Virus record (IMG/VR): IMGVR_UViG_3300047550_004989 | Coordinates: 1 to 42,492 of that record | Source of the DNA: a virus | DNA: 42,492 bases | Direction: 5' to 3' (one strand) | Part shown: positions 434 to 42,492 of the stretch, piece after piece | Numbering within the stretch: the stretch's first letter is position 1 | How the letters are laid out: every line of letters begins with the position of its first letter | The notes under the pieces: generated by a model | Databases searched by the model: none | What the model saw: only the letters and a program-made list of their open reading frames with translations | What the model was told of the DNA's origin: nothing | Translations under genes and position numbers: made by a program

Positions 434-1183
434 ATGGAACAAAGTATGTACAACCCCAATCCACTAACATTACCACATGACATTGTAAAATTACCATCTC
501 AGGGTGTTTTTTATAAAAATAAAAAGAAAGCCCTTAAAGTTGGTTACCTTACCGCAGCGGATGAAAACGTATTAATGGGCGGAGGAAATAGTAAAGAAGG
601 TCTAATAATAACGTTGTTAAGGTCTAAGATTTATGAAACCGACTTTAAACCTGAAGATTTACTTCAAGGGGATATGGAAGCTCTATTAATTTTCCTTAGA
701 AATACAGCATTCGGACCTGAATATGTCATAACATTGACAGACCCTGAGACTAATAAAGAATTTACATCTACCATACTTTTGGACGAATTGTTTATAAAAG
801 AAACAACAATTAAGCCTGGTGAGGATGGTACATTTACAACAAAATTACCAAAATCGGATATAACTGTTAAACTAAGACCTTTGACTTTCGGTGAACTAAT
901 GGAATTAGACAAAATGGCGGAAAGTTATCCTGTGGGAAGACCTGTTCCGAGACAAACTTGGAAACTTAATAAAATGGTTGTAGAAATGAATGGTAATTCA
1001 GAGCCAGGTTTTATTGCTCAAAACATAGAACAATTACCGATAGCGGATGCCAAATTTATAAGAAACTTTATAGATGAAAATGAACCAAGATTAGATTTAA
1101 CAAAAATGGTAAAAGCCCCATCAGGAAAAGAGACAAAAGTTAACATTGTCTTTGGGGTTGAGTTTTTTCGGCCTTTCTTCTAA
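434..1183 (+). CDS. Tail assembly chaperone / baseplate hub protein, T4 gp26-like (gpG analogue)
   Basis: This 249-residue protein has the layout of the T4 gp26 (T4_baseplate) family: an N-terminal LPSQGVFY segment, a KVGYLTAADENVL region, an I-x2-L helix, a LLQGDMEALLIFLRNTAFG helix (residues about 77-95), and a TDPETNKEF turn where relatives have a Cys pair. The next gene downstream is the tape measure, so the position matches the gpG slot of other tailed phages, where this class chaperones the tape measure. The reading frame stops at 1181-1183 just after a T6 run, and a second frame continues with a plausible C-terminal domain (see 1146-1328). ATG 434 is the first start after the hairpin and no Shine-Dalgarno is present. 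The family call rests on pattern and synteny; a role in hub assembly like T4 gp26/gp51 is the alternative reading. Confidence 0.65.
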   Translation: MEQSMYNPNPLTLPHDIVKLPSQGVFYKNKKKALKVGYLTAADENVLMGGGNSKEGLIITLLRSKIYETDFKPEDLLQGDMEALLIFLRNTAFGPEYVITLTDPETNKEFTSTILLDELFIKETTIKPGEDGTFTTKLPKSDITVKLRPLTFGELMELDKMAESYPVGRPVPRQTWKLNKMVVEMNGNSEPGFIAQNIEQLPIADAKFIRNFIDENEPRLDLTKMVKAPSGKETKVNIVFGVEFFRPFF

Positions 1184-3324: not shown

Positions 3325-6300
3325 ATGCCAAGTTATTTAACTTTCCCATCAACGGAGCAATATAGAAAAGTATTAATGGCGAGAAATCTCGCACCATATA
3401 CTGTGCCTGGTGTTTATACCCCCAATGTTAACCAAATTAATTATGAGGTTGTTTTGAGGGATGAAAGTGTTGTGGATTCCCCTGATGAGTTAATAGCTAA
3501 AGACCCATTTGCTGATTTATTATATCCCTTGAACCCATTTGGACCTGAAGGTGGTTTTAGTAAAACCATCAATGCGGGTGGATTGGCGAATACAAAATCG
3601 AATTTAGGGCCATACGATGTACAAGATGCGAAATTACCTGAACTGAGTTTACCTTACGAGAAACAAATACCAACTAATAATGTTTATACTAGTGGTAGAG
3701 AAATACAGTTATATTCGGTAGACAGTGATTTATTTAATGGTAATCCGAGTTCCAAAAATTTATTTATACCTTATTACGAGCCATGGAGTTTTGTTCCATC
3801 AACCTATACGGCATATGATATATTACTTCAGGATGACCCAAATGGTGATATGGGTAAGTTATCACAAGATTCTTTTATTGCTCAATTAGGTGCAAGACAA
3901 TTAAAGAGTTTATTACAAGATAACAACGCCACACAATCACAAAACCGTTTGAATTCATTTAATGCGAATGTTTTAAGAGGTGTTGGTGCTGGTGCAACTT
4001 CATATTTAAGAGGTACTAGTAATCAACCATATACATCGTATAAAATAACTTTAGATGCCGATTATTTAGCGGGAAATTATTTAGGTAGATTATCGGGTTC
4101 TTATTCACCATCATCAACAATACCTGGGGATTATTTTGAGGATGAACAATATCTAAGATATCCTGGAACGGTAAATCAAATATCTAACGCACTTAACATT
4201 AAATCGATATTAGGTCCGATTAATCAATATTTGGGTCCTAAGGTTTTCAGAAGACAAACACCATCAGAAGTATTCATACAAAATACTGGGTCGGGACAAG
4301 TATCTCAATTATTTATTAGTTTAAACTATAACAAATACAAACCTAACTATAATAGAAACCTTTTACAAGACATTGGTCAAGGTGCTCTAAATGTATTGGG
4401 TTTATCAAGCCAAGTTGATGTTCCAACAAATTATTATGTGGGTTCATCGGTACAAGACCCAACTTTTATTGAGTCCCCATTAGGACAAGTACCTTATGAT
4501 AGTTTGGGTAGAGATACACAATCAATTGTTGTTGGTCCTACCGAAATGTCAAATCTATTCGAAAACAACTCAACGAATGCCTTAAAATTTGGTTTGAATG
4601 GTAAGGCGTTTGAAGATGGTGCGGGATTATCTGGTGGATTGGTATGGAGTTCTCCTAAATATAGTAACGCAGGTTATAGAGCGTTAATTGGGGGAGACCA
4701 AGGAACTGAAAGTCCATCATTTAATGAGGTTAAATCTAAAATAGATACTGAATTAAGTATTGAATACGGATTTAAAGAAGGTTCGATATTAGATATTACT
4801 CAAAAACTTTTGGATTCAACACCAAGAGGTGGAAAAAGATTATCACACGTTGGTAACGCAATCAACCAACTGAGTAAAGTTTTTAATGACGGTTATAAGG
4901 AAATTACTAAAGGTTCTAAAGTATTATCATATGTAGACCAAAATGGTGCTGTTGTAGGAACAGAATATTGTAGAGTATTCACTAAAGATACTCCATATTA
5001 TACATACCAAGATTTACAGAAGTATGATGGTAATATTAGAAAGTTCACTTATTCCGTATTGGATAATACCTTCAATTTGAATATCGCACCACTTAAAACA
5101 ACATCAACATCAAGTTCAACAAATATTGTTAATGGAAGTGTAAAAAAATATATGTTCTCAATAGAGAATTTGGCTTGGAGAACTTCTAATAGGCCAGGTT
5201 TTACCGTTTTAGATTTACCTGAGTGTGAAAGAGGTCCGAATGGTGGTAGAGTTATGTGGTTTCCTCCATATGATTTAGCATTTTCAGAAAACATTACACC
5301 TAATTTCGAATCAAATAACTTTTTAGGTAGACCCGAGCCTGTTTACACATATAAGAATACTCAAAGGTCAGGGACTTTAAGTTGGAAAATAGTTGTAGAC
5401 CATCCTTCAATATTAAATGTTATTGCGGATAAAGAATTAAAAAACTTAACCGACCAACAAATTAACGGTATTGTTGATTCATTTTTTGCGGGATGTAAGA
5501 AATATGATATCTATACGTTAGCGGCTAAATATAATACAATACCTATAAATGAATTGTATGCGATACAAGAAATAATTTTAAATGAAACCAGTTTAAAACC
5601 CGAGGACGTTGAAAGTATTTCTAATGTGGCATCAAAACAAACTGAAGATATTAAACAACAACCACCAAGTGTTGATTTAACAAAATATAATGGTTTGGCA
5701 TATTATTTTGATAATGATTCTCCTGACCCAAATTCAACATCGACAACAACAACGGCTGATTATCTTACATTGTATAATGAGTATATCGGAAATAAATCGA
5801 CATACGAGAATAATGCGCCAACAGAAAGTGATAAATCAAATATTGATAATTTCTTCACAAGTATTATTGAGACGAACTTTAAACAAAACGATGATTTATT
5901 AAATGATTTAGTGAAACTTTTTGAAGGTAATAGTACAGCAGATGGTAAAACAAATGCGTTTGTTACAATTACTTTACAAGGTAGTGCTTCGGCACCAGCC
6001 ACTGCGGGATACAATCAGAATTTATCTGAAAGAAGAGCGTCATCGGTAAAAAACTATTTTACAAATTGGAATAGTGGTAAACTTGCTAAGTATATAACAA
6101 GTAATAATTTGGTTATACAAACATCGGGGACTGGTGAACAAGTACCTAATTTAAAAGTTCCTAATGCACCATATATCACGGCAAGTAATTGTACTGATTT
6201 GAAACCAAACGCAACACAGTACGAAAAAATCTACTCACCAAATGCAATGGCATGTAGAAGAGTATCTATGAGTATTTCAAATCCTAAGATAAATCCACCA

Positions 6301-8244
6301 GAAAAAAACCCAACAAATGATAATACTCAAACAACTCCAACTTCAAAAACACCACCTGGATACACACCAGCACAGCCAGTTCCTGCTAATATATCAACTC
6401 AACAAAAATTAAGAGATGGTATTAGTAAGAAAATTTTAAGAACACTATTATCAGAATGTAGTTATTTCGAGGCAATTCAGAAAGAAGACCCAATGTTTTA
6501 TGGTTCTATTCAAAAACAATTAAAACATTTTAGTCCTGCTTTCCATGCGATTACGCCTGAAGGTTTGAACTCAAGATTAACTTTCTTACAACAATGTACT
6601 AGACCTGGAGATACTATCCCAACAATAGGTTTGGACGGTAAACCAAAATACACTAATTCAGTTAATACAAGTTTTGGTGCTCCTCCTGTTTTAATATTGA
6701 GGATAGGTGACTTCTATAATACAAAGATAGTTCCAACATCATTGAATATTCAATATGAACCGTTAGTTTTGGATATTAATCCTGAAGGTATTGGTGTTCA
6801 ACCTATGATAGCAAAAATATCTTTAAGTTTTAACTTTGTTGGTGGTTCAGGGTTGAAAGAACCCATTGACCAATTACAAAATGCGTTATCATTTAATTAT
6901 TATGCCAATACAGAAATGTACGATGAAAGAGCTGACGCTACAGACCCATCATATAAAAAAATAGATGCGGATGTTGTTAAAGCGATTTTAGACCAATCAA
7001 AAACATTGGGAGTAAATAATGTGAATAACAACATTAAAAATGATGGAGGAAAACCAATTGGTGACGTAGTTCAAATTGTACAATCGGATGCTGGTGCAAG
7101 TGGAAATACGACCTACCAAAAAATTATGGATGGTTTATTAACAAATGGTCAAAACTATATTAATTCGGTTTATAACAAAATAGTACAATTAACAAAAGAT
7201 AATAACTTCCAAGTTTATACTTGTTTTATACAAGATAGGAAATACTCAAGTGGGGTAACAAAAGAATTTACAACACCGAAAGATTTAAAGATTGTAGGTA
7301 AACCATACGACATAGAGTCAAGAATTACAAAATTATTTGATGATATTAATAATGATATTGATAATGTTAAGAACGATGGGGACGATGGATTAGATTTTAT
7401 CAAACAATTGTTTGTTCAAAACTATTCTAAGAACTCAGTGAAGAAAGTTAAGGAAAGTTTAAAAAATGCTGTCAATAAAAATAAAACAGATATTATAAAT
7501 TCAACAACTTCAGTTTTAAATGAGATAACGAATTCACAAACTGATTTAGTTAGAACATTTAGAAAATTAGATATTATTGATTCATTAACCGATGGTTATA
7601 TTCAAACAAATCAAAGTGCTGAAATCTATAATTTGACAGCAACAACTGAAGTACAATCAGGCGGAACATACGCAGATACCTACGCAGAATTAGTTGGGGA
7701 TTATGATTTGGCCGTTGATAGTTTAAGTTCCTTTTATAACGATTTGAAATCATCAGGATTTATTGAGATAGAATATAACACTGATAATTTAAGACTTTAT
7801 GATGATGGAAATACATTGGGTGTTGATTCTTGTTGTATAAATCAAGAAAAGAGATTTTATATGGCAATGTCAAAAGTGATACTTGACCCTAATAAATTGA
7901 ATTCATTTATAGAAGAAATTATACCTAAAGATATTCAGACACAAAATGTCGGTGGAAAATCTATTTTAGATTTCACCAAAGATTATTTTTCACAAAAAAG
8001 AAATTACTATCAAAGAGAGTATACAGCAGAACAAAAATTTGTGAAAAATTTTGAAACTACAAGTAATTATAAAGACAAGTACAAAACTTGGAAACCATTT
8101 GTTTCGGGTAAAGTTCGAAAATTCTTGTTCAGCGGTTATGTTGATGGAACATCCACACAAGTAACTTATTTACAGAATTTATATAAAGACGGAAACTCAA
8201 ATACAAGTGACCAAACATTCAACGGAAAAAATAAACTTAACTAA
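3325..8244 (+). CDS. Giant baseplate protein with tube-initiator-like regions and an OmpA-like domain
   Basis: This 1639-residue protein fills the place of the T4 tube-initiator/baseplate genes (48/54) between the tape measure and gp53. Residues about 614-695 hold GRVMWFPPYDLAFSE, then FLGRPEPVYTYKNTQRSG and VVDHPS, a pattern shared by large phage baseplate proteins. A second similar region is at about 1121-1205 (PTSLNIQYEPLVLDINPEG, IAKISLSFNFVGG). Between them residues about 836-989 resemble an OmpA_C peptidoglycan-binding domain: VTITLQGSASAPATAGYNQN, then LSERRASSVKNYF, and a final ACRRVSMSIS strand. A Pro/Thr linker (990-1025) follows. The first 600 residues and the last 430 are unrecognised; the C-terminus is helical and Asn/Asp/Lys-rich. 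The stop overlaps the next start (TAATG), indicating coupling. The gp48/gp54 relation is inferred from position and motif shape only; the OmpA-like call is firmer. Confidence 0.6.
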   Translation: MPSYLTFPSTEQYRKVLMARNLAPYTVPGVYTPNVNQINYEVVLRDESVVDSPDELIAKDPFADLLYPLNPFGPEGGFSKTINAGGLANTKSNLGPYDVQDAKLPELSLPYEKQIPTNNVYTSGREIQLYSVDSDLFNGNPSSKNLFIPYYEPWSFVPSTYTAYDILLQDDPNGDMGKLSQDSFIAQLGARQLKSLLQDNNATQSQNRLNSFNANVLRGVGAGATSYLRGTSNQPYTSYKITLDADYLAGNYLGRLSGSYSPSSTIPGDYFEDEQYLRYPGTVNQISNALNIKSILGPINQYLGPKVFRRQTPSEVFIQNTGSGQVSQLFISLNYNKYKPNYNRNLLQDIGQGALNVLGLSSQVDVPTNYYVGSSVQDPTFIESPLGQVPYDSLGRDTQSIVVGPTEMSNLFENNSTNALKFGLNGKAFEDGAGLSGGLVWSSPKYSNAGYRALIGGDQGTESPSFNEVKSKIDTELSIEYGFKEGSILDITQKLLDSTPRGGKRLSHVGNAINQLSKVFNDGYKEITKGSKVLSYVDQNGAVVGTEYCRVFTKDTPYYTYQDLQKYDGNIRKFTYSVLDNTFNLNIAPLKTTSTSSSTNIVNGSVKKYMFSIENLAWRTSNRPGFTVLDLPECERGPNGGRVMWFPPYDLAFSENITPNFESNNFLGRPEPVYTYKNTQRSGTLSWKIVVDHPSILNVIADKELKNLTDQQINGIVDSFFAGCKKYDIYTLAAKYNTIPINELYAIQEIILNETSLKPEDVESISNVASKQTEDIKQQPPSVDLTKYNGLAYYFDNDSPDPNSTSTTTTADYLTLYNEYIGNKSTYENNAPTESDKSNIDNFFTSIIETNFKQNDDLLNDLVKLFEGNSTADGKTNAFVTITLQGSASAPATAGYNQNLSERRASSVKNYFTNWNSGKLAKYITSNNLVIQTSGTGEQVPNLKVPNAPYITASNCTDLKPNATQYEKIYSPNAMACRRVSMSISNPKINPPEKNPTNDNTQTTPTSKTPPGYTPAQPVPANISTQQKLRDGISKKILRTLLSECSYFEAIQKEDPMFYGSIQKQLKHFSPAFHAITPEGLNSRLTFLQQCTRPGDTIPTIGLDGKPKYTNSVNTSFGAPPVLILRIGDFYNTKIVPTSLNIQYEPLVLDINPEGIGVQPMIAKISLSFNFVGGSGLKEPIDQLQNALSFNYYANTEMYDERADATDPSYKKIDADVVKAILDQSKTLGVNNVNNNIKNDGGKPIGDVVQIVQSDAGASGNTTYQKIMDGLLTNGQNYINSVYNKIVQLTKDNNFQVYTCFIQDRKYSSGVTKEFTTPKDLKIVGKPYDIESRITKLFDDINNDIDNVKNDGDDGLDFIKQLFVQNYSKNSVKKVKESLKNAVNKNKTDIINSTTSVLNEITNSQTDLVRTFRKLDIIDSLTDGYIQTNQSAEIYNLTATTEVQSGGTYADTYAELVGDYDLAVDSLSSFYNDLKSSGFIEIEYNTDNLRLYDDGNTLGVDSCCINQEKRFYMAMSKVILDPNKLNSFIEEIIPKDIQTQNVGGKSILDFTKDYFSQKRNYYQREYTAEQKFVKNFETTSNYKDKYKTWKPFVSGKVRKFLFSGYVDGTSTQVTYLQNLYKDGNSNTSDQTFNGKNKLN

Positions 8245-22880: not shown

Positions 22881-23336
22881 ATGTCAAACGGTATAACATA
22901 TGGTGTTGCGTTTCCTTTTGTTGAATCAACTGTGGGTGATTATGTAAAATTAACAGAAACTGCAAATGATGAAATAAGAGCCGATTTAATCAATCTTCTA
23001 TTGACAAGAAAAGGTTCAAGATATTTTTTACCTGACTTTGGAACAAGATTATACGAGTATATATTTGAACCATTGGATACACCAACGTTCGATAGTATTG
23101 AAGCCGAAATTAGAGAATCATGTGAAAAATATTTACCTAATTTAAAAATCACAAATATTTCTGTTAAAGCGTTAACTATGGATGAGGAAACATCTTATCT
23201 ATCAGGTGACACATCAAATAATAACTATAGTTTACCAGGAAAAAATACTTATGAGTATACAGCTAAAGTGAGAATTGATTATATTATTACTGATAGTGTT
23301 TTCGGAACTAAAGATTTCGTGATTTTAAATATTTAA
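22881..23336 (+). CDS. 25: Baseplate wedge protein gp25 (lysozyme-like fold)
   Basis: This 151-residue protein is a clear GPW/gp25 family member: ADLINLLLTRKGSRYFLPDF (about 34-53) followed by GTRLYEYIFEPLD, where the family's 'R-x-G-x-R-x-x-x-P-x-F-G-x-x-L' core binds sheath and wedge parts. The N-terminal YGVAFPFVESTVGDYVKLT segment is typical for the form in Bacteroidota phages. It joins the inner baseplate to the sheath. A loop insertion of about 20 residues (YLSGDTSNNNYSLPGKNTYE) lies near the end, relative to the shorter T4 protein (132 residues). It is separated from gp6 by five bases, as in T4-like phages, where these two are neighbours in function though not always in the genome. Confidence 0.9.
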   Translation: MSNGITYGVAFPFVESTVGDYVKLTETANDEIRADLINLLLTRKGSRYFLPDFGTRLYEYIFEPLDTPTFDSIEAEIRESCEKYLPNLKITNISVKALTMDEETSYLSGDTSNNNYSLPGKNTYEYTAKVRIDYIITDSVFGTKDFVILNI

Positions 23337-23341
23337 TATAA

Positions 23342-25183
23342 ATGGCTGAACAAAGAATATCATATACAGTAAGAGATTTCCAAGCAATTAGAACGGAGTT
23401 AATAAATTATACAAAGACTTATTATCCCGATTTAATTCAGAATTTCAATGATGCTTCCATATTCTCAGCGTTTATGGATTTAAATGCTGCGGTTTCCGAC
23501 AACTTACATTTTCATATTGATAGAAGTATACAAGAAACTGTATTACAATATGCTCAACAGAAATCATCTATTTTTAATATAGCAAGAACTTATGGTTTGA
23601 AATTACCAGGCCAAAGACCATCGGTTGCGCTAGTCGACTTTTCGATTACAGTTCCAGCAAATGGTGATAAAGATGATGAAAGATATGAAGGTGTTTTAAG
23701 AAGGGGTAGTCAAGTTACAGGTGCGGGACAAGTATTTGAAAACATTTATGATATTGATTTTTCTTCACCATATAATGCTGAAGGTTTTCCTAATAGATTG
23801 AAAATACCAAACTTTGATGGTAATAACAACTTAATTAATTATACAATTACAAAAAGAGAATTGGTTGTTAATGGTATCACAAAAGTTTACAAACAAGTTA
23901 TCACACCAACAGATGTTAGACCATTCTATGAATTATTTTTACCTGAAAAAAACATTTTAGGAGTTACCGCAGTTATTCAAAAAGACGGTACAAATTATGC
24001 TAACGTACCAACACCTCAGGAGTTTTTATCGCCTGTTGGTAAATGGTATGAAGTAGATGCCTTAGCCCAAGATAGAGTATTCATAGAAGACCCTACAAAA
24101 CCTACAGATAGACCTGGTGTGAAAGTTGGTAAATACGTTGTAACTAATAATAGGTTTATAACTGAATACACACCTGAAGGATTCCTTAAAATGACTTTTG
24201 GTGGTGGAAATACATCCGCTGATGACCAGCTGAGAAACTTTGCAAGAAGTGGTATTCAAACACAAAGTATGCAAACCTATCTAAATAACTTCTCTTTGGG
24301 TAGTACCTTAAAATCAAATACTACTATCTTTGTTCAATATAGAGTAGGTGGTGGTTTAGGAAGTAACTTAGGTGTGAATGTTATAAATCAAATCGGAACA
24401 GTTTCTTTCTTTGTAAACGGTCCTTCCGAAAGTACGAATACCGCAGTTGTTAATTCATTGAGATGTAATAACGTAACAGCGGCAATCGGTGGTGCGGGAT
24501 TACCAACATTAGAAGAAGTAAGAAATTATGTATCATTCAACTTCGCATCACAGAACAGAGCTGTAACTATAAACGACTATGAGGCGATTATAAGAAAGAT
24601 GCCTGGCCAGTTTGGAGCTCCTGCAAAAGTTGCGGTTGTTGAAGAAGATAATAAAATTAAAATCAAGATTTTATCATACGATAGTACAGGGGCATTAACG
24701 GCAATCGTATCAAATACATTGTTGAATAATTTGGCTGAGTACTTATCAAATTATCGTATGATTAATGACTATGTTTCAGTTGAAACGGCTGATGTTATCG
24801 ATTTATCAATTGAGGTGTCGGTAGTGTTAGACGCAAGTCAAAACCAAGGGGCTGTAATAGGTCAAATCATTAATACGGTTTCAGATTATTTTAACCCATC
24901 GACAAGACAATTAGGTCAAAATGTAAATCTATCCGAAGTTAATAGAGAGATACAATCATTGAATGGTGTTATATCTATGACCGATTTAAGAGTATTCAAT
25001 AATGTAGGTGGTCAATATTCGTCATCTGAAACATCTATGTCATATTCAGACCCTGCAACAAAACAAATCCAACCTCAAGATAATACAATATTTGCATTAC
25101 CTAATCAGGTTTATCAAATAAGATATCCGAATAAAGATATCACTGTTAAAGTTAAGAACTTCCAAACAGTAACGATAAGCTAA
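23342..25183 (+). CDS. 6: Baseplate wedge protein gp6-like (GpJ family)
   Basis: This 613-residue protein follows gp25 and matches the gp6/GpJ wedge family, which forms the ring around the hub and triggers sheath contraction. The N-terminus has TVRDFQAIRTELINYTKTYY and a long helical NDASIFSAFMDLNAAVSDNL segment. The middle contains AVTINDYEAIIRKMPGQFG (about residues 405-423), the characteristic 'T-x-x-D-Y-x-x-x-I' element, followed by an AKVAVVEEDNKIKIKIL strand and a NLAEYLSNYRMINDYVSV helix. The C-terminus has QIINTVSDYFNPSTRQLGQN and VNLSEVNREIQSLNGVIS, as in GpJ. T4 gp6 is 660 residues. Start ATG 23342 follows an A/T-rich leader overlapping the gp25 stop region, with no Shine-Dalgarno. 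Confidence 0.85.
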   Translation: MAEQRISYTVRDFQAIRTELINYTKTYYPDLIQNFNDASIFSAFMDLNAAVSDNLHFHIDRSIQETVLQYAQQKSSIFNIARTYGLKLPGQRPSVALVDFSITVPANGDKDDERYEGVLRRGSQVTGAGQVFENIYDIDFSSPYNAEGFPNRLKIPNFDGNNNLINYTITKRELVVNGITKVYKQVITPTDVRPFYELFLPEKNILGVTAVIQKDGTNYANVPTPQEFLSPVGKWYEVDALAQDRVFIEDPTKPTDRPGVKVGKYVVTNNRFITEYTPEGFLKMTFGGGNTSADDQLRNFARSGIQTQSMQTYLNNFSLGSTLKSNTTIFVQYRVGGGLGSNLGVNVINQIGTVSFFVNGPSESTNTAVVNSLRCNNVTAAIGGAGLPTLEEVRNYVSFNFASQNRAVTINDYEAIIRKMPGQFGAPAKVAVVEEDNKIKIKILSYDSTGALTAIVSNTLLNNLAEYLSNYRMINDYVSVETADVIDLSIEVSVVLDASQNQGAVIGQIINTVSDYFNPSTRQLGQNVNLSEVNREIQSLNGVISMTDLRVFNNVGGQYSSSETSMSYSDPATKQIQPQDNTIFALPNQVYQIRYPNKDITVKVKNFQTVTIS

Positions 25184-32807: not shown

Positions 32808-33923
32808 ATGGTAGATAACGAATATTATGTGAGAATATCACCCGAGGTAATTCAAGACGATATTTTTCAAGTATGTTACCCAAGTGGAACAACTTACCCA
32901 AGTGGTTGTACGTATGTTTACTCATCAATGACTGAAATTTTGTCAGGTGGAACGGGAGGAACGTCATTATTGACAGGTCTTACGATTCCAATTTTATTTA
33001 CACAATCAGGAGTTGATGTTGGGTACTATTCAATTTTTGATGGTGCGATATCTCAGGCCGATGTGGTAAGAAACTTTTTGTTTTCCGCAACCACTGGTTC
33101 ACCTAATAAAGTATACTTTTACAACACATCAGAAACTCAATATAAAAGTTATCTTCTTCTTTCATCATATACTGTTGATTGGGGAGATGGTAGTCCGATA
33201 CAGACAATAACAACAAACTCACCTAATTATATTACCCATGATTATTTGAATAATGGGGTGTATACAATAGTATTAAGTCAAAATAATCCTTGGGGTGTAA
33301 ATACCGTAAAGAAAACAGTTACAATACCATATACACCAACCACGATTACAAACCCTAATGGTACGGCATATTTTACACCAAATATAGGTTCTTGGTCGGC
33401 AACACCAATATCGTATGATTATATTTTTAGTGGAGATGCTATCAATTTAATTTCGGCTCAAACATCTGACAAATATGTTTCAGTACCATTTTTAATGAGC
33501 GGATATACAAAAAGTAGAGTTACTGAATTAGCGTCATATGGTACACCAAAATATCAATTAAATACACCGATTTATGATGTAAACAATCAAATCTATGGTT
33601 ACATAACTTCAATGACACCACAATTAACAGGTTATACAATTCAAGATGTAAACTATGTGGATTTTGTGGATGGTACGACTATTTTTATTCTTGACTCATA
33701 CGGATTAACTGCTGATTGGATGGTAGAAGAACCTATGGTCAAAGATGAGGCGTTATTGAACGTAGTAATGCAACCTGAAGTACAATCTGATATATTCATA
33801 GAGAGAGGTAAGAATGCGGTAATTGAAAAAATTGAAAGATTAGGGGAAGTAGATAATATTGGGGATTTAAAAAATTACGGTTATGGTTATTTTAATTTTA
33901 GAATAGCACAAAACCTAAGATAA
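32808..33923 (+). CDS. Structural protein with PKD-like domain (371 residues)
   Basis: The middle of the protein contains SSYTVDWGDGSPIQTITT followed by YITHDYLNNGVYTIVLS (about residues 122-165), which reads like a PKD-type beta-sandwich ('W-D-F/W-G-D-G-S ... H-x-Y-x-x-x-G-x-Y-x-V-x-L-x-x-x-N'). The C-terminal 45 residues (PEVQSDIFIERGKNAVIEKI then ERLGEVDNIGDLKNYGYGYF) form a separate helical motif that I associate with virion proteins of Bacteroidota phages. PKD domains are common in adhesins and in phage fibres. It is separated from the preceding gene by two bases. A wedge-to-fibre connector role is an inference; no T4 counterpart is evident. Confidence 0.62.
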   Translation: MVDNEYYVRISPEVIQDDIFQVCYPSGTTYPSGCTYVYSSMTEILSGGTGGTSLLTGLTIPILFTQSGVDVGYYSIFDGAISQADVVRNFLFSATTGSPNKVYFYNTSETQYKSYLLLSSYTVDWGDGSPIQTITTNSPNYITHDYLNNGVYTIVLSQNNPWGVNTVKKTVTIPYTPTTITNPNGTAYFTPNIGSWSATPISYDYIFSGDAINLISAQTSDKYVSVPFLMSGYTKSRVTELASYGTPKYQLNTPIYDVNNQIYGYITSMTPQLTGYTIQDVNYVDFVDGTTIFILDSYGLTADWMVEEPMVKDEALLNVVMQPEVQSDIFIERGKNAVIEKIERLGEVDNIGDLKNYGYGYFNFRIAQNLR

Positions 33924-34874: not shown

Positions 34875-37855
34875 TGAGTAGAAAATTTTATAGATATCCC
34901 CCAAGACCGTCAAGTGGTGCTGGGACTTTCTCGGATGATTTAGTTGGTTTTCAGCTAGTCCAAGGGGGAGGTCTTACTCAAGGCAATTTCGAATTCACAA
35001 CAGGTATTGTTGAAAAGGTAAATCGAAATTTCCATATTGGTTCGTTTTCATCACCTATTTCATTAAACACTCTAAACATTACGAGTGTTTTAGAATCCAA
35101 ACAAATATTTGCGAAAGAATTTAGAGTTTACCCCAATTTCGATTTATCTGAAATTTCAAGGTTTACTTTATACGGACCTTTGACAAATAGGATGATTGCA
35201 TCAATTACTAAGATTATCCACTTTTTCCCTGGTGCAATCGAAATCAATAGTCTTAAACCTGATTCATCATCAGGTGTGACAGCATTTAACGCTGTCTATG
35301 ACCCTGTTGAAAATATAACAACGTTTGAGATTAATACTCAAACTTTCAGTAATCCTTTCGGGTTAGATTATAGTATTAATTCGACAAGAAATATTGCGTT
35401 ATTGGATTATGAAGTTTCACCTCTTAGAAATTTTACGGTTGAATACCCTAAATATTCTTTGTTTATCGGTGAAGAAGATTATCCATTGGTATTTTTACAA
35501 CCAACTCAAACTTTATATTCAGGAAATTTGGAAATTTCTGTTTCGGGAAATCCATTTTCAAGTCAATCAAGTTCAATAGAATATCTTGTTATCAGACCTA
35601 ATAATTATTATTCTGATAAATCATTAATTGAGCCATTCGATGAAGTGGAAAAATTCTTATTGAACAGGTTGGTATCACCAGCATATACTGCAAGTTTCAA
35701 AGTACCAAAACAATCCGAGGATGGTGTGACTTATGTGGATTATCAAACCGTTACTTGGCCATTGAATGGTAGATGGAACTTGGACATTGTTTCACCAGCA
35801 TATGATGAATATCTTGCTCAGGTGAGTGATATTGCGGAGTCGTTTGACTCATTCAGAACGAATTTGGTAACAAGATTTTTAACAACACAAGCCTTCAAAG
35901 ATTTTGATACATCAGACCAAAAAATACAGAAGATATTATCAATATACGGTAGAAGTTTTGATGAGATTAAAAAGTTCATCGATACTTTGGCTTTCATGAC
36001 ATCGGTTAACTACACGGTTAAAGATGATATTCCGTCACAACTTCTGAAAAATTTGGCCTACACATTAGGTTGGCAGATTAATGTTTCTCCGATTACTGAG
36101 GATGATTTCTTACAATCTGTATTTGGTAATGATAGTAAAATAGAATACCCTGGTTATTCAAGAGCCAATACCCCAACTGAATTAAACTATCAGTTTTATA
36201 GGAATCTTATATTGAACGCGGCATATTTGTTCAAATCAAAAGGTACAAGAAAATCGGTTGAGTTCATGTTAAGATTAATCGGTGCTCCTGAGGCTTTAGT
36301 AGAATTTAATGAGAACATTTATATTGCAGGACAGCGTATAAACATGGGGGATTTCGAGAAACAATATGCTCAAATCTCAGGTGGTACTTATAGTGTTGAC
36401 TTACCTGTTTATGATAGTGGTGTAACGTTTACAATCTTGTCAAATGTTTATACTGGTTTCACGTCACAAACGATTGTGTCAGACGCTGATGCAACTTTGG
36501 CGGATTATCCTGTAACAGCTGAAGGTTATCCAAAACCATTACCTAATACAGAGAATTATTTCTTTCAAAAAGGAGCAGGATGGTTTGAATTGGTTGAGGC
36601 TCACCAAAGTCCTCAAGAAGTTAATCAGACAACAAGTGTTTTCACTGGTCAAAACTTCAATATTCAAACACAATTTCAACCGTTTACTTATGGTCAAAAA
36701 TATTTGGAAAGATTCAGAACATTCCCTTACATGACGTTAGGTTTCAATCTAATTCGAACAATTGATAATAAGAAAAGTTGGCCGATTACGGACACTGGTT
36801 TAAGAATAGGTAGTGAGAGTGGAAATTATGGTGCATATTACTATGTTCCAACAGAAAAAGCAGTAATCAATGTAAAAAACATAGATTTATTTTTGAATCC
36901 AGCACAAGGTTTGTGTTATGATGTTTGGTATATGTCAAACAAATATGATTATCCAATACCAAGTACGGGATTAACATCACCATATCCACAACCAGGTGGA
37001 ATAGATTGGACTTTCATTGACCCGAAACCGAGTAAAAAAACATTTTTTGAATTTGCTCAGACGTTTTGGTTGAATATGATTAATACAAGAAACAGACAAT
37101 TCAGTACTGACGGTAAAACAAGTGGTTATCCGACATTACAGTCAATTTATTGGAAATATTTAACGTCTCAAGAGGCAATCAATATACCAAACGATAATTT
37201 CACTTATGAAACCATGATTAATTATGTTACTGGTTTGGGTGATTATTGGGTTAGATTGGCAGAACAAATGATGCCAGCATCAACATTATGGATGGGAGGA
37301 ACTAAATTTGAAAACTCAATTTTCCATAGACAAAAGTTTGTTTATAGATTACAAACAGGTTGTCAAATTCTACCATTACCATGTAATCCATGTGGTTTAC
37401 TTGGAAATATTTTCCCTTATGCTTGTGTTGAGGAACAACTTACTTGTAATGTTTATCCTTGGGATAATAACAATACAACTGTAACATCTTTTAACGATGT
37501 TTTATATCAAACATTATTAAGTTATTTGAATGCGAATTCGATATCTATATTTAACTGTTTGATGTCAACTTTGGAGACAACATGGTATTTGGATGTTAAG
37601 TTAGATGGAAGTACGATAATGCAATTACCATTCTATACAGGGTACGGTGTAAACGATGTACCTAGTACAGGTTTTTGGTTATACATTTTACAGAATAATC
37701 TTCCAAATTTATTAGTTGATTATGGATTGGGAATAACTTTTAATACGAGCGAAAACCCAACCTTTGTTATTTATAATTTAGGTTGTGACCCGAGATTTTA
37801 TGATAAAACCTTTGAATTAAACATAGGATTAGATTTTAATATTAATTGTAATTAA
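34874..37855 (+). CDS. Baseplate wedge protein with gpI-type motif (T4 gp7-like)
   Basis: This 993-residue protein is close in length to T4 gp7 (1032). About residues 375-475 contain IPSQLLKNLAYTLGWQINVS and then YLFKSKGTRKSVEFMLRLIG (around 450), followed by APEALVEFNENIYIAGQRIN. The 'L-L-x-L-A-x-x-L-G-W ... L-F-K-S-K-G-T-x-x-A/S-I/V-x-x-x-L-x-L-x-G' signature is that of P2 gpI and gp7-type wedge proteins, which link the inner wedge to the fibre network. The C-terminal third has FWLNMINTRNRQFSTDGKTS and Cys-rich RLQTGCQILPLPCNPCGLLG. It is encoded just before the adhesin-like genes, as gpI is before fibre genes in P2-like phages. Coupled to both neighbours by one-base overlaps. The gpI-type call is reasonable; exact equivalence to gp7 is inferred. 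Confidence 0.65.
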   Translation: MSRKFYRYPPRPSSGAGTFSDDLVGFQLVQGGGLTQGNFEFTTGIVEKVNRNFHIGSFSSPISLNTLNITSVLESKQIFAKEFRVYPNFDLSEISRFTLYGPLTNRMIASITKIIHFFPGAIEINSLKPDSSSGVTAFNAVYDPVENITTFEINTQTFSNPFGLDYSINSTRNIALLDYEVSPLRNFTVEYPKYSLFIGEEDYPLVFLQPTQTLYSGNLEISVSGNPFSSQSSSIEYLVIRPNNYYSDKSLIEPFDEVEKFLLNRLVSPAYTASFKVPKQSEDGVTYVDYQTVTWPLNGRWNLDIVSPAYDEYLAQVSDIAESFDSFRTNLVTRFLTTQAFKDFDTSDQKIQKILSIYGRSFDEIKKFIDTLAFMTSVNYTVKDDIPSQLLKNLAYTLGWQINVSPITEDDFLQSVFGNDSKIEYPGYSRANTPTELNYQFYRNLILNAAYLFKSKGTRKSVEFMLRLIGAPEALVEFNENIYIAGQRINMGDFEKQYAQISGGTYSVDLPVYDSGVTFTILSNVYTGFTSQTIVSDADATLADYPVTAEGYPKPLPNTENYFFQKGAGWFELVEAHQSPQEVNQTTSVFTGQNFNIQTQFQPFTYGQKYLERFRTFPYMTLGFNLIRTIDNKKSWPITDTGLRIGSESGNYGAYYYVPTEKAVINVKNIDLFLNPAQGLCYDVWYMSNKYDYPIPSTGLTSPYPQPGGIDWTFIDPKPSKKTFFEFAQTFWLNMINTRNRQFSTDGKTSGYPTLQSIYWKYLTSQEAINIPNDNFTYETMINYVTGLGDYWVRLAEQMMPASTLWMGGTKFENSIFHRQKFVYRLQTGCQILPLPCNPCGLLGNIFPYACVEEQLTCNVYPWDNNNTTVTSFNDVLYQTLLSYLNANSISIFNCLMSTLETTWYLDVKLDGSTIMQLPFYTGYGVNDVPSTGFWLYILQNNLPNLLVDYGLGITFNTSENPTFVIYNLGCDPRFYDKTFELNIGLDFNINCN

Positions 37856-39987
37856 TGGCGATAGCAAACGGATATAATGTTTTTATAACAGGAGATTGTC
37901 AAAGTTTAAATGTTGGTGTAATTGATTTATATCCAACTTTTGGTACGCCACCTTATACAGTTGATTGGGTATTACCGAGTTTAGGTATTGACCCATTGGT
38001 TACGAATTCGACAAGAACAGGTTTAAGTGCGGGTACATATAATATTTATGTTACCGATTCAACAACACCAGTCAATCAATATTTGGAAATAAATCTACAG
38101 ATATCTTCGGGTATTTGTTTAAATTTAGAGGTTACCTCAGACACTACTTGCGGTAATGATAATGGTTCTTTAATTGTTACTGCTACAACAACAACGTTAC
38201 CTATTGTTTATAACTTATACGGTTATTTAAGTGGTACGAGTTATTTAGTTAGTTCAACTACGGCATTTACAAATTCATTACCTTATTTCGGATTATCAGC
38301 AGGAACATATTATGTTGAAGCATTCGATAATGGTGGATGTTCAGGTTCTACTGGTACTTGTGTTATTAAAGATTCTACCAACTTTGATTATGGATTTTAT
38401 GTGGTTAATAATTCACCATGTATAAATGTCAATAACGGTGCGATTTATATAACAGGGTTGACAGGAAATCCGCCTTACACCTATACTTGGACTTCAGGAC
38501 AAACAACTCAGGTTATAACAGGATTAACAGATGGTATATATACTGTAACAGTTACGGATTTTTATGGTTGTACGGTAACGAAATCAACAACGGTTTCAAC
38601 GGCACCTACTTTAGGTATTGTTGGATTCTCAAACACATCACCAACTTGTTTTTCAAGTGATGGGATAGTTACAGTCAACATATCGGGAGGTACACCACCG
38701 TATTATTATCAATTTTCAAATGGAAGTAATAATATACAATACGGGCAAAGTATTACATATGTTGGATTATCTACAGGATTTTACACTGTAATAGTTACAG
38801 ATGCTGCTTTATGTTCAGTGACAGGTTCAACAAGTATTTATACACCAAATTCGTTTCAACAAGTTATAGTTGAACCAACAAATTCTCAATGTTCTGATTC
38901 AAGTGGAAGTATATTAGTTACTGTGGTAGGTGCATCACCACCGATAACGTTTGAATTAACAGATTCTTTAAATAATACAACTACTATAGTTGGAGGACCG
39001 AGTGCTTTCTTTACAGGACTAACCTCAGGTAATTATAATTTAGTAGTCTCCAACTCAGGACCTTGTGTATATACTCAGACTATAACGATACAAAACATAT
39101 ATGCGTTTAATATATCAACTTCGACAACAGGTACTACTTGCGGATTGAATAATGGTATAGTTGAAGTGTCGGTAGATACACCAGGAATTTATAACTATCA
39201 ATTAGGTTCAGCGTTGTATACTAATACCACAAATCAAAGTGTTATTTTTGATAACTTACAACCTGGGTATTATGTTGTTACAGTTTCAGATGCAAATCCT
39301 GATACATTACCTTGTGTACAAAATTATGGGTTTATAATATCAGGTTCTGAAAATGTAAATTTCACATTATCAAATACAGGATGTGGAACAGGTTCTGAAG
39401 GTACAATAACGACATTAATAACAGGTGGAGTACCACCATTCACTTATAGTTGGACACCAAGTGTCGCACCTCAGACAGGAATTTATATCACAGGTTTAAC
39501 AGCGGGAACTTATACATTAGTATTAACAGATTCTAATGGTTGTAGTGCGACAAAGAGTACAACAATAGTTTGTAGTTCAGGAATAAGTACATATGCGGTG
39601 TTCAATGTTTGTCAAAGTGAATTTACTGAAACAGCAGGTGAAAAACTTGAATTATTACAAATGTTAAATAATGGATATTATGCTCTTACATCAGGAGAAA
39701 CAGGGTGTTCTTTGACTAGTGCTGATTTTACGTTATTAGTAAATGTGGGTGGAACGGCTTATACAAACACATTTTACACGTCAACGTCATTATTAGATGT
39801 TCCGAGTGTTAGTACTTACGTATCTGTATTATCAGGTATTTTAAATACAATACCAGGGATGGGAACAGTTAATATAAATACTGAATTTAACACCATACAA
39901 TTAACCACTGATTGTGAATTAACCTTAGCCGACAAAAATGTGACAATACAAGTTGTTATTGATTATAATATCTGTTGCGATGCATGA
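37855..39987 (+). CDS. Tail protein with seven SprB-like adhesin repeats
   Basis: Seven beta-sandwich repeats of about 60-75 residues cover residues 13-560: at about 13-73, 94-165, 183-240, 258-320, 338-402, 421-486 and 500-560. Each has N-terminal 'C-x(2-5)-N/S-G-x-I/V', then G-x-P-P-Y/F (for example NPPYTYTWTSG, GTPPYYYQFSNG, GVPPFTYSWTP), then GLTDGIYTVTVTDFYGC or GLTAGTYTLVLTDSNGC. This is the SprB repeat of flavobacterial gliding adhesins. A different C-terminal domain follows (575-710: FNVCQSEFTETAGEKLELLQ to VVIDYNICCDA), perhaps for oligomerisation. There is no signal peptide, as expected for a virion protein and unlike cellular SprB, which is exported. Cys pairs bracket the repeats. 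Encoded right after the gpI-like gene, it is probably a fibre or receptor-binding arm. The start overlaps the preceding stop (TAATG). Confidence 0.75.
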   Translation: MAIANGYNVFITGDCQSLNVGVIDLYPTFGTPPYTVDWVLPSLGIDPLVTNSTRTGLSAGTYNIYVTDSTTPVNQYLEINLQISSGICLNLEVTSDTTCGNDNGSLIVTATTTTLPIVYNLYGYLSGTSYLVSSTTAFTNSLPYFGLSAGTYYVEAFDNGGCSGSTGTCVIKDSTNFDYGFYVVNNSPCINVNNGAIYITGLTGNPPYTYTWTSGQTTQVITGLTDGIYTVTVTDFYGCTVTKSTTVSTAPTLGIVGFSNTSPTCFSSDGIVTVNISGGTPPYYYQFSNGSNNIQYGQSITYVGLSTGFYTVIVTDAALCSVTGSTSIYTPNSFQQVIVEPTNSQCSDSSGSILVTVVGASPPITFELTDSLNNTTTIVGGPSAFFTGLTSGNYNLVVSNSGPCVYTQTITIQNIYAFNISTSTTGTTCGLNNGIVEVSVDTPGIYNYQLGSALYTNTTNQSVIFDNLQPGYYVVTVSDANPDTLPCVQNYGFIISGSENVNFTLSNTGCGTGSEGTITTLITGGVPPFTYSWTPSVAPQTGIYITGLTAGTYTLVLTDSNGCSATKSTTIVCSSGISTYAVFNVCQSEFTETAGEKLELLQMLNNGYYALTSGETGCSLTSADFTLLVNVGGTAYTNTFYTSTSLLDVPSVSTYVSVLSGILNTIPGMGTVNINTEFNTIQLTTDCELTLADKNVTIQVVIDYNICCDA

Positions 39988-40017: not shown

Positions 40018-41022
40018 GTGGCATCATCTATAACAATATCGAGCGTAACAGGAACATCACCGTATGACATTTATGTTTGCGATGTGTTAGGACAACATTG
40101 TTTTTTGGTACAATCGGGAGCAACGATTATTCCAACAACAATTACATTACCTGTTTATTTTGATTTTGCACCTGCGGTGATGATTTCAATTATAGATTCA
40201 AATGGATGCGAAACGTTTCATATCGTTGATTGTAATCTATTACCACCTACTCCAACACCTACTCCAACACCTGGTTTATCACCTACACCTACTCCGACAG
40301 TAACACCAACGGAAACTGTAACACCAACTCCTACACTTACTCCAACGATAACGCCAACAGAAACTTCAACACCTACTCCAACTCCGACACCTACTCCGAC
40401 ACCTACTCCTGCAGCGTTCTACGCTTATTTATTCCCTGAACCACAAGACTCGACATCACTTACTGATATCGGTACGTATATGTATAACAATGGTTCAACT
40501 AGCTTTTTAGGTTATGGTAACGGTGGTGTACCAAATACAACAGATTATTCCAATAACCTTGATATCTACGCCCACTACTCAGGTTTTACAGGAGTACCGT
40601 TGACAAATTTTGTGACACCTGTAACATCACTATCTTCACCAATACGACAATTACCTGGTGTTGGTGTTGATACTTATGGTTGTCCAGTAAATCAATACAC
40701 TTTTGGTACTATTGAAGTAACAACGAGCGATATTAATCCTAACATAGAATATTTCTACAGTATTTGGATTCCATTGAATGGTGTTGGTGGTACAATGAAT
40801 AATATGACAGTTGATGCGGGTGTTGGTATTGCTTGTTCAACTAACATTATATACAATGGTATACCAGACCCTACGTTAGCATCGATAGATGTTACCGTTA
40901 CATCGGGAGCAGCAATCCCTGCTGGAACATATAGAGTTTTATGGATTACACCACACCTACTACAACCACCAATACCACCTCAAGTAAACTCAATTTTTAT
41001 AAAAGGTAACGTAAAAAGTTAA
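40018..41022 (+). CDS. Tail fibre or adhesin protein with Pro-Thr linker (GTG start)
   Basis: The only start available upstream of Met54 is GTG at 40018; a stop in frame lies 12 bases further up. Residues 1-72 are a small beta domain ([20 protein letters not shown], ending in [15 protein letters not shown]) that resembles a shortened SprB-like repeat. Residues about 77-131 are almost only Pro and Thr ([25 protein letters not shown]), a stiff extended linker. The C-terminal 200 residues ([20 protein letters not shown] to [10 protein letters not shown]) form a beta-rich domain that could bind a receptor. Pro-Thr linkers like this join domains in surface proteins and phage fibres. It follows the SprB-like gene by 30 bases with no hairpin and probably shares its transcript. 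The function is inferred. Confidence 0.62.
40246..40410 (+). repeat. Pro-Thr codon repeat region
   Basis: Hexamers such as CCTACT, CCAACA, CCGACA and CCTACA alternate to encode (Pro-Thr)n with Val, Glu, Ile, Leu or Ser interruptions. Synonymous codons vary between units, so the repeat is maintained for its protein property rather than being a recent DNA slippage product. Confidence 0.85.
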
Positions 41023-41038: not shown

Positions 41039-42492
41039 ATGATGTCAAGTTTACCTTATAAAAATCCGATAAGTGCTGACCAATTATCAGGACCTCAAAG
41101 TGTTGTAAGACAAGTTACTTACGGCACAAATTTTTCTGTGTCTTCTGTTGGTGGTTACATGGAAGTGTACAACCTTTCGGATTTAGATTTAACGTTAACT
41201 GCGGCATCATATCCTTCTTTAATTGAACTTACGGCTAATACAATCCCTATTACTTTTACAAAAGGTAATAATACCTTTTTAGCACCTGATTATATAACGC
41301 TTAACTCTGATAATATATCATCTGGTAGAAGAAGATTAGGTATGTTAGTTTACGTTAAAGAAACTGATTTAGTATACCAATATGTAATACCAAACTATGA
41401 TACACTATGGGCGGCATTAACAGGGTTGACAGGTTTTTCGGCAATAACGGAAAGTGCTTACTCAACGGTTGTTAATAATCGTTCGCAAGCAGGTCAGGAT
41501 TTTATAGATGCTTGGACGGCATCAACTATCGAAGGTATTTCAGGGTATACAAGTTCAAATGCAAGATGGAGAATTTTTCATGGTACAGATACCTTTGTTA
41601 CAGGCGGTACTTATTATTCGGGTTCAAGTATTTTAGATTTATATAGAAATGATGGTGTTACGGTAAGTATAACAGGTGTAACGGCAGGTACATCAGGTGT
41701 GAATGGTACATCAGGTACAAGTGGTACGGATGGTAGTTCAGGGACTGACGGTAGTTCTGGTACGGATGGTAGTTCTGGAACAAGTGGAACCTCTGGTACT
41801 AGTGGAACATCAGGTTCATCAGGTACAGATGGTAGTTCAGGTACTAGTGGGACTTCAGGAACTGATGGTAGTTCTGGTACAAGTGGAACATCGGGTACTA
41901 GTGGAACTTCTGGAACATCAGGTACTAGTGGAACTTCAGGTTCATCAGGAACTGACGGTAGTTCGGGTACTAGTGGAACTTCAGGTTCGTCAGGAACTTC
42001 AGGTACTAGTGGAACTTCAGGTTCATCAGGAACTGACGGTAGTTCGGGTACTAGTGGAACATCAGGAACATCAGGTTCGTCAGGAACTGACGGTAGTTCA
42101 GGTACTAGTGGAACATCAGGTACGAGTGGTTCATCTGGTACAGATGGTAGTTCAGGTACTTCAGGAACATCAGGTACTAGCGGTACTTCAGGAACATCAG
42201 GTACGAGTGGTTCATCTGGTACAGATGGTAGTTCAGGTACTAGTGGAACATCAGGTACTAGCGGTACTTCAGGAACATCAGGTACGAGTGGTTCATCTGG
42301 TACAGATGGTAGTTCAGGTACTAGTGGAACATCAGGTACTAGTGGAACATCAGGAACTTCAGGTTCATCAGGAACTGATGGTAGTTCGGGTACTAGTGGA
42401 ACATCAGGTACTTCAGGTACAAGTGGTTCATCTGGAACTGACGGTAGTTCTGGTACATCAGGTACTAGCGGTACATCAGGTTCGTCAGGTTC
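41039..42492 (+). CDS. Gly-X-Y repeat fibre protein (3' end beyond the window)
   Basis: The frame is open from ATG 41039 (or the next codon, ATG 41042) to the end of the window: at least 484 codons, so the gene is 3'-truncated. From ATG 41042, residues 1-215 form an N-terminal domain (LPYKNPISADQLSGPQSVVR, MEVYNLSDLDLTLTAASYPS, RRRLGMLVYVKETDLVYQYV) with a conserved-looking GRRRLGMLVYV segment of a kind seen in phage collar or fibre proteins. From 41687 on the protein is uninterrupted glycine triplets, at least 89, nearly all GTS, GSS or GTD. Collagen-like repeats in phage fibres usually form trimeric stalks, but this one has no proline. It lies at the end of the adhesin cluster and probably codes for a long stalk tipped by a downstream domain not seen here. 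Confidence 0.75.
   Translation, partial: MMSSLPYKNPISADQLSGPQSVVRQVTYGTNFSVSSVGGYMEVYNLSDLDLTLTAASYPSLIELTANTIPITFTKGNNTFLAPDYITLNSDNISSGRRRLGMLVYVKETDLVYQYVIPNYDTLWAALTGLTGFSAITESAYSTVVNNRSQAGQDFIDAWTASTIEGISGYTSSNARWRIFHGTDTFVTGGTYYSGSSILDLYRNDGVTVSITGVTAGTSGVNGTSGTSGTDGSSGTDGSSGTDGSSGTSGTSGTSGTSGSSGTDGSSGTSGTSGTDGSSGTSGTSGTSGTSGTSGTSGTSGSSGTDGSSGTSGTSGSSGTSGTSGTSGSSGTDGSSGTSGTSGTSGSSGTDGSSGTSGTSGTSGSSGTDGSSGTSGTSGTSGTSGTSGTSGSSGTDGSSGTSGTSGTSGTSGTSGTSGSSGTDGSSGTSGTSGTSGTSGTSGSSGTDGSSGTSGTSGTSGTSGSSGTDGSSGTSGTSGTSGSSG
41687..42492 (+). repeat. 9-bp-period Gly-Thr-Ser / Gly-Ser-Ser / Gly-Thr-Asp coding repeat
   Basis: At least 89 consecutive 9-bp units encode Gly-X-Y with X = Thr or Ser (one Val) and Y = Ser or Asp (one Asn). 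The Asp unit is always GTD followed by GSS, 13 times in this stretch, and from the fourth on is usually preceded by GSS. Units 54-62 (42164-42244) and 63-71 (42245-42325) are a perfect 81-bp tandem duplication. The array continues past the window. Confidence 0.92.

Follow-up and report, generated by a model that had tools for sequence, protein, structure and literature searches.

A conserved SprB-family protein in the baseplate gene cluster of uncultured tailed phages: a putative tail arm

SprB of Flavobacterium and other SprB-repeat proteins of Bacteroidota contain repeats with a G-x-P-P-Y motif and a closing cysteine, and the same repeat family occurs in a protein encoded by a virus. What does a phage do with repeats of a gliding-adhesin type, and where would it carry them? 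Arrays of Ig-like domains are known on phages, for example in the Hoc head decorations. The DNA considered here, called the window, is a linear IMG/VR fragment of 42,492 nucleotides (IMGVR_UViG_3300047550_004989; Table 1). The reading that we favour, with moderate confidence, is that the protein forms an arm of a contractile tail, in which its C-terminal domain would serve as anchor and seven Ig-like domains of the SprB family would project and make weak contact with the host. It is referred to as the arm protein below.

Table 1. Features of the window that bear on the arm protein
Feature	Position	Strand	Remarks
T4 base plate protein family	434..1183	+	PF12322, E = 4.6e-7
gp25-like baseplate wedge protein	22881..23336	+	PF04965, E = 1.2e-11
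gp6-like baseplate wedge protein	23342..25183	+	phrog_219, E = 1.3e-18
Baseplate-region protein, 993 aa	34874..37855	+	homology of residues ~290-480 to gp109 of Flavobacterium phage immuto and to its Microcystis phage Mel-JY01 counterpart
C-terminal domain of 993-aa protein	37421..37852	+	aa 850-993; paralogous to arm C-terminal domain
SprB-type arm protein, 710 aa	37855..39987	+	seven Ig-like units and C-terminal domain; ORF, Pfam, AlphaFold2
Ig-like unit 1	37855..38112	+	aa 1-86; Cys15 conserved, possibly paired with Cys88 at the unit 2 border; scored alone, no Pfam match
Ig-like unit 2	38113..38382	+	aa 87-176; Cys99/Cys162; Ig_7 24.9 bits, below cut-off
Ig-like unit 3	38383..38604	+	aa 177-250; Cys189/Cys239; SprB 20.8 bits
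Ig-like unit 4	38605..38850	+	aa 251-332; Cys265/Cys320; SprB 35.6 bits, above cut-off
Ig-like unit 5	38851..39099	+	aa 333-415; Cys346/Cys404; SprB 28.6 bits, above cut-off
Ig-like unit 6	39100..39348	+	aa 416-498; Cys429/Cys487; no SprB match alone
Ig-like unit 7	39349..39576	+	aa 499-574; Cys510/Cys563; SprB 27.3 bits; with unit 3 the most conserved
C-terminal alpha/beta domain of arm protein	39607..39984	+	aa 585-710; putative tail anchor; homologous to C-terminal domain of upstream protein
Next gene	40018..41022	+	short conserved beta domain, Pro-Thr linker and exchangeable distal domain; possible arm partner
Collagen-like (GTSGTSGSSGTDG) fibre	41039..42490	+	conserved N-terminal domain of ~200 aa; runs off the window

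The seven-unit array

The reading frame of the arm protein is intact and opens with ATG. In a Pfam search with the whole protein, SprB (PF13573) matched at 71.3 bits (E = 4.8e-20), far above its cut-off of 28, whereas SprB matched neither of two shuffled controls nor the 574-aa array when reversed; the family was also found in all 29 aligned homologues. The assignment to SprB made in a sequence-only reading of the window was thus borne out, and the outcome that would have spoken against it, scores with generic Ig-like or PKD families only, did not occur, since SprB outscores these families on the repeats. The same reading had counted seven repeats. By sequence, four of the seven are recognisable as SprB: the Pfam matches form four stretches, located in domains 3, 4, 5 and 7. 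When units were scored singly, 4 and 5 exceeded the SprB cut-off and 7 and 3 stayed under it; units 1, 2 and 6 gave no SprB match, the closest Pfam family of unit 2 being Ig_7 ("CHU_C associated"), itself under the cut-off. By structure, the count of seven holds. Structure prediction of the repeats and the C-terminal part, which had been proposed as a check, gave an AlphaFold2 model (mean pLDDT 82, 29-row alignment) with seven Ig-like beta-sandwich domains, including units 1, 2 and 6, followed by a disordered linker (residues 574-597); residues 598-708 form an alpha/beta domain whose elements run H-E-E-H-E-E-E.

Each unit has one near-invariant cysteine pair, present in 26-29 of the 29 sequences, and a further pair (618/708) lies inside the C-terminal domain. 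Each Ig-like unit is probably stapled by one disulfide; such bonds, if formed, would require post-lysis or assisted formation. Eight cysteine pairs are unexpected in a protein synthesised in the cytoplasm, and this counts against the arm. The 574-aa array has four lysines and arginines against 29 aspartates and glutamates.

Is the protein exported like a cellular adhesin? In agreement with the sequence-only reading, its N-terminus does not resemble a signal peptide: the first 40 residues hold no lysine or arginine, a strongly hydrophobic stretch is missing and the first beta strand starts from residue 7. Por_Secre_tail, which would indicate T9SS sorting of the kind expected for surface export of an SprB-type gliding adhesin, found no match in the arm protein in Pfam, and neither a gliding component nor a T9SS signal was found in it. 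The arm protein thus differs from cellular SprB in lacking a signal peptide and T9SS sorting, in having exactly seven units and a virus-specific C-terminal domain, and in being encoded in a baseplate gene cluster. Its best fold match in the PDB is to fragments of GhpA (E = 2.4e-19), a Bacteroidota surface protein known as the grappling hook protein of Aureispira. GhpA has tandem Ig-like domains at 15-20% identity and was missed by a PDB sequence search; it is a bacterial surface filament, unlike the arm. A full-length homologue was found by Foldseek in an uncultured Caudovirales phage (A0A6J5LD72 in UniProt and BFVD; 36% identity over 714 aa, E = 8e-62), where it bears the name "SprB repeat".

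The baseplate neighbourhood and a shared C-terminal domain

The T4-baseplate, gp25 and gp6-like wedge genes, together with genes for a UvsX-like recombinase, SSB, DnaB helicase and ribonucleotide reductase, identify the virus as a myovirus. The baseplate-cluster position of the arm gene, pointed out in the sequence-only reading, is conserved across relatives and holds in over a hundred viral contigs, and it is strengthened by the shared C-terminal domain described below. The same cluster encodes a protein with a PKD-like domain (32808-33923; 22.4 bits, cut-off 27). Elsewhere, a cluster of phage structural genes includes one for a 1639-aa protein with an OmpA-like domain (3325-8244; 26.6 bits, cut-off 27.2).

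The gene directly upstream had been labelled gpI-like. This label found little support, as Tail_P2_I scores 12.2 bits against a cut-off of 20.6 and appears in none of 22 relatives at E<=0.01. Going by sequence, the 993-aa product is best called a baseplate-region protein: gp109 of phage immuto, which is homologous to its middle part, sits close behind the baseplate wedge gene of that phage. T4 gp6-gp11 gave no match to it. The full model of the protein reached a mean pLDDT of 51, and a fold search with this low-confidence model returned nothing significant. Because of the poor model and the lack of a match to T4 gp6-gp11, we infer the site at which the arm is anchored.

The models of the arm protein and the 993-aa protein end with the same order of elements. 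In hhalign, their C-terminal domains are homologous with 96.6-96.9% probability (E 3e-10 to 5e-10), against at most 2.4% for 12 other stretches of the 993-aa protein, and an HMM built from either domain detects the other in nearly every relative shown. This shared domain is the strongest argument for assigning the arm to the tail. It also suggests, tentatively and with less assurance than we attach to the arm itself, how the protein came about: an Ig array of an adhesin family may have been fused to a duplicated C-terminal domain of the baseplate-region protein, which would act as a docking domain holding the arms a set distance away from the baseplate, with the homologous domains pairing in the virion.

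Could the Ig string instead decorate the capsid or neck? The arm protein matches phrog_2973 "Hoc-like head decoration" (E = 4.8e-12), and its profile matches "putative neck whiskers protein gp24" (9occ, E = 2e-6) as well as decoration proteins. Its overall plan, with Ig-like domains strung on an alpha/beta anchor at the C-terminus, is the same as that of Hoc of T4-like phages, which is thought to bind bacterial surfaces (PMC10385173). However, these profile matches all fall in the Ig units, which the AlphaFold2 model likewise presents as a Hoc-like string, and the anchors are unrelated: against an alignment of seven Hoc C-terminal domains, the arm C-terminal domain reached 0.79% in hhalign with the capsid-binding domain, and its relative is the domain of the 993-aa protein. 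Moreover, Hoc resides on the capsid and varies in unit number, whereas the arm is fixed at seven and its gene, in a tail cluster, adjoins that of the baseplate-region protein in all relatives examined. A head or neck decoration is therefore improbable, and a position on the tail is preferred.

Constancy and age of the array

How constant is the module? The figures from 160 further IMG/VR loci, fetched by the arm C-terminal domain or unit 4 in overlapping searches, concern the nearest relatives of the window and thus describe this clade. At least three units and the upstream gene are present in all 160 loci, and the C-terminal domain follows in the same frame in 156, the remaining four being cut by the contig end. 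The upstream and arm genes are directly adjacent in 155 of the 156 complete cases, and 155 of the 156 complete arm proteins have exactly seven units. These 156 amount to 105 different sequences, which fall into 44 clusters at 70% identity and 14 at 50%. Relatives picked by the upstream gene carry SprB repeats in 34 of 36 cases; one relative found by this route that is without SprB is L063. Among uncultured viral contigs, some of them near 300 kb, 312 have the arm C-terminal domain and at least 493 have unit 4. In annotated phage records, a similar array was found only in the 642-kb uncultured LR756502.1, where a 1675-aa frame (L065 7304-12331) contains some 15 SprB-like units but lacks the C-terminal anchor domain. 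In bacterial and archaeal genomes, no relatives of the 993-aa protein were found, nor any of the arm by one C-terminal-domain pattern, so that this route provides no prophage and no link to a host.

The more alike two upstream genes are, the more alike are the arrays (Spearman 0.63, p = 0.004) and the C-terminal domains (Spearman 0.69); the distal domain encoded by the next gene shows no such tracking (rho -0.46, p = 0.29, n = 7). Judged from sequence comparison, and for the next gene from few loci, the array seems to be standing equipment, and the exchangeable part seems to be the next gene. Within the window gene itself (40018-41022), similarity of the distal domain to relatives is out of step with the remainder of the genome and looks like module exchange.

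A constant of this kind also suits the main rival of an adhesive arm, namely a structural strut whose Ig domains brace the baseplate or link long fibres without adhesion, binding being left to the downstream fibres. The fixed number of seven and the tracking of the upstream gene, not shared by the distal domain of the next gene, both speak for it. Yet the cellular proteins for which the family is best known are adhesins of the surface, a surface hook protein ranks first among the fold matches, and many relatives append extra modules, often Pro-Thr-linked, to the arm protein. We consider a strut a good deal less probable than an arm in contact with the host, to which we hold.

Several relatives encode other proteins of related build. 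L043 (12982-22929) and L053 are exceptions among the relatives picked by the upstream gene: they have a giant protein of more than 3300 aa that contains Pro-Thr-linked modules and closes with an SprB unit and an arm-type C-terminal domain. In L019 (16827-18173) and L041 (16261-17589), a second SprB protein is shorter, at about 440-450 aa, and lacks the array of seven units. Downstream of the arm gene, L014 (16748-17725), L019 (15819-16796), L033, L041 and L045 encode a 321-325-aa protein that bears an HDADI motif. It is possibly a glycosyltransferase and might modify Pro-Thr linkers; the L014 copy has no Pfam match.

Did the array come from a host adhesin? The sequence-only reading had pointed to gene flow from Bacteroidota surface proteins and had suggested a phylogeny of each repeat. 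As a recent event, such flow is not borne out by the result. In a tree of 113 units over 81 columns, positions 1-5 and 7 each form a single clade (SH-aLRT 96-99 for five of them, 88 for unit 5), and position 6 nearly, not quite, does so. Each unit of the window is on average closest to the unit in the same position of other viruses, not to its neighbours, so that the seven types were already distinct in the ancestor of the clade, and the seven-unit array is common to deeply divergent viruses. As positions 1-5 and 7 form clades of their own, the array predates the spread of the clade; on this sequence evidence it is old in these viruses and not a recent capture from a host adhesin. A recent capture of the gliding-adhesin repeats of the host, serving to compete for polysaccharides or to hitch a ride on the gliding track, could appeal to the genuine SprB homology and to units 3 and 7, which Spirosoma repeats match as strongly as their own paralogues do. 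In the cellular comparison, built on plasmid copies of SprB repeats (Runella, Spirosoma, Aureispira and others, ~25-40% identity to the arm), cellular units in general score about as well against the window units as do paralogues within the protein, which again argues against recent flow. With the viral clades of unit positions, the sharing of the array across divergent viruses and the lack of a T9SS signal or gliding component, we regard such a capture as very improbable. One of these plasmids, from Aureispira (L069 3251-5722), encodes an SprB-repeat protein between an RHS protein and a tail-fibre-domain protein.

A putative arm and its host

An outline of how the arm may work is as follows. 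The alpha/beta C-terminal domain would anchor it on the tail, perhaps by pairing with the adjacent 993-aa protein. The seven Ig-like domains, presumably disulfide-stapled, would project outward as an arm of fixed length, about 25-30 nm by our estimate, and very low charge. By analogy with the SprB family and the Hoc-like plan, from which a weak contact with the host surface is deduced, the putative arm would touch surface glycans or cell-surface proteins weakly and reversibly. Such contact would keep the phage near the cell until the downstream Pro-Thr-linked and collagen-like fibres find a specific receptor; relatives of the collagen-like GTSGTSGSSGTDG fibre reach lengths of over 2000 aa.

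Which cells would be touched? The nearest cultured phages by wedge protein are immuto and Mel-JY01 (26-28% identity). Immuto (Immutovirus), at 27.9% over 99%, shares the middle region of the 993-aa protein and, like the window, has no Shine-Dalgarno signals to speak of; neither an SprB arm nor the shared C-terminal domain was found in its baseplate region. Shine-Dalgarno-like signals precede one of 23 starts in the window, against one of 68 in immuto and 15 of 44 in Mel-JY01. On the coding strand, a Bacteroidota-type promoter motif shows no enrichment (1 found, 0.9 expected). The few Shine-Dalgarno signals and the presence of a Flavobacterium phage among the nearest by wedge make a Bacteroidota host likely and lend indirect support to the host suggested earlier. 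The carriers are probably a clade of large phages infecting Bacteroidota.

A phage homologue named "SprB repeat" in UniProt was already known; what is new is the tail module and how constant it is, together with the C-terminal domain that the two proteins share. The literature searched, mostly outside subscription journals, held no paper describing SprB repeats in virions and none on A0A6J5LD72, for which the database name stands alone. In hundreds of uncultured viral contigs, an Ig array of the type of a Bacteroidota adhesin forms a constant component of a tail module. The group of aquatic tailed phages concerned is uncultured and widespread, and its members carry what is probably an arm fixed to the tail that aids contact with the host. 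If this is true, the arm would give a handle on how large Bacteroidota phages hold their hosts, its docking domain would be open to biochemical tests, and it would be a case in which to study disulfide-stapled virion proteins.
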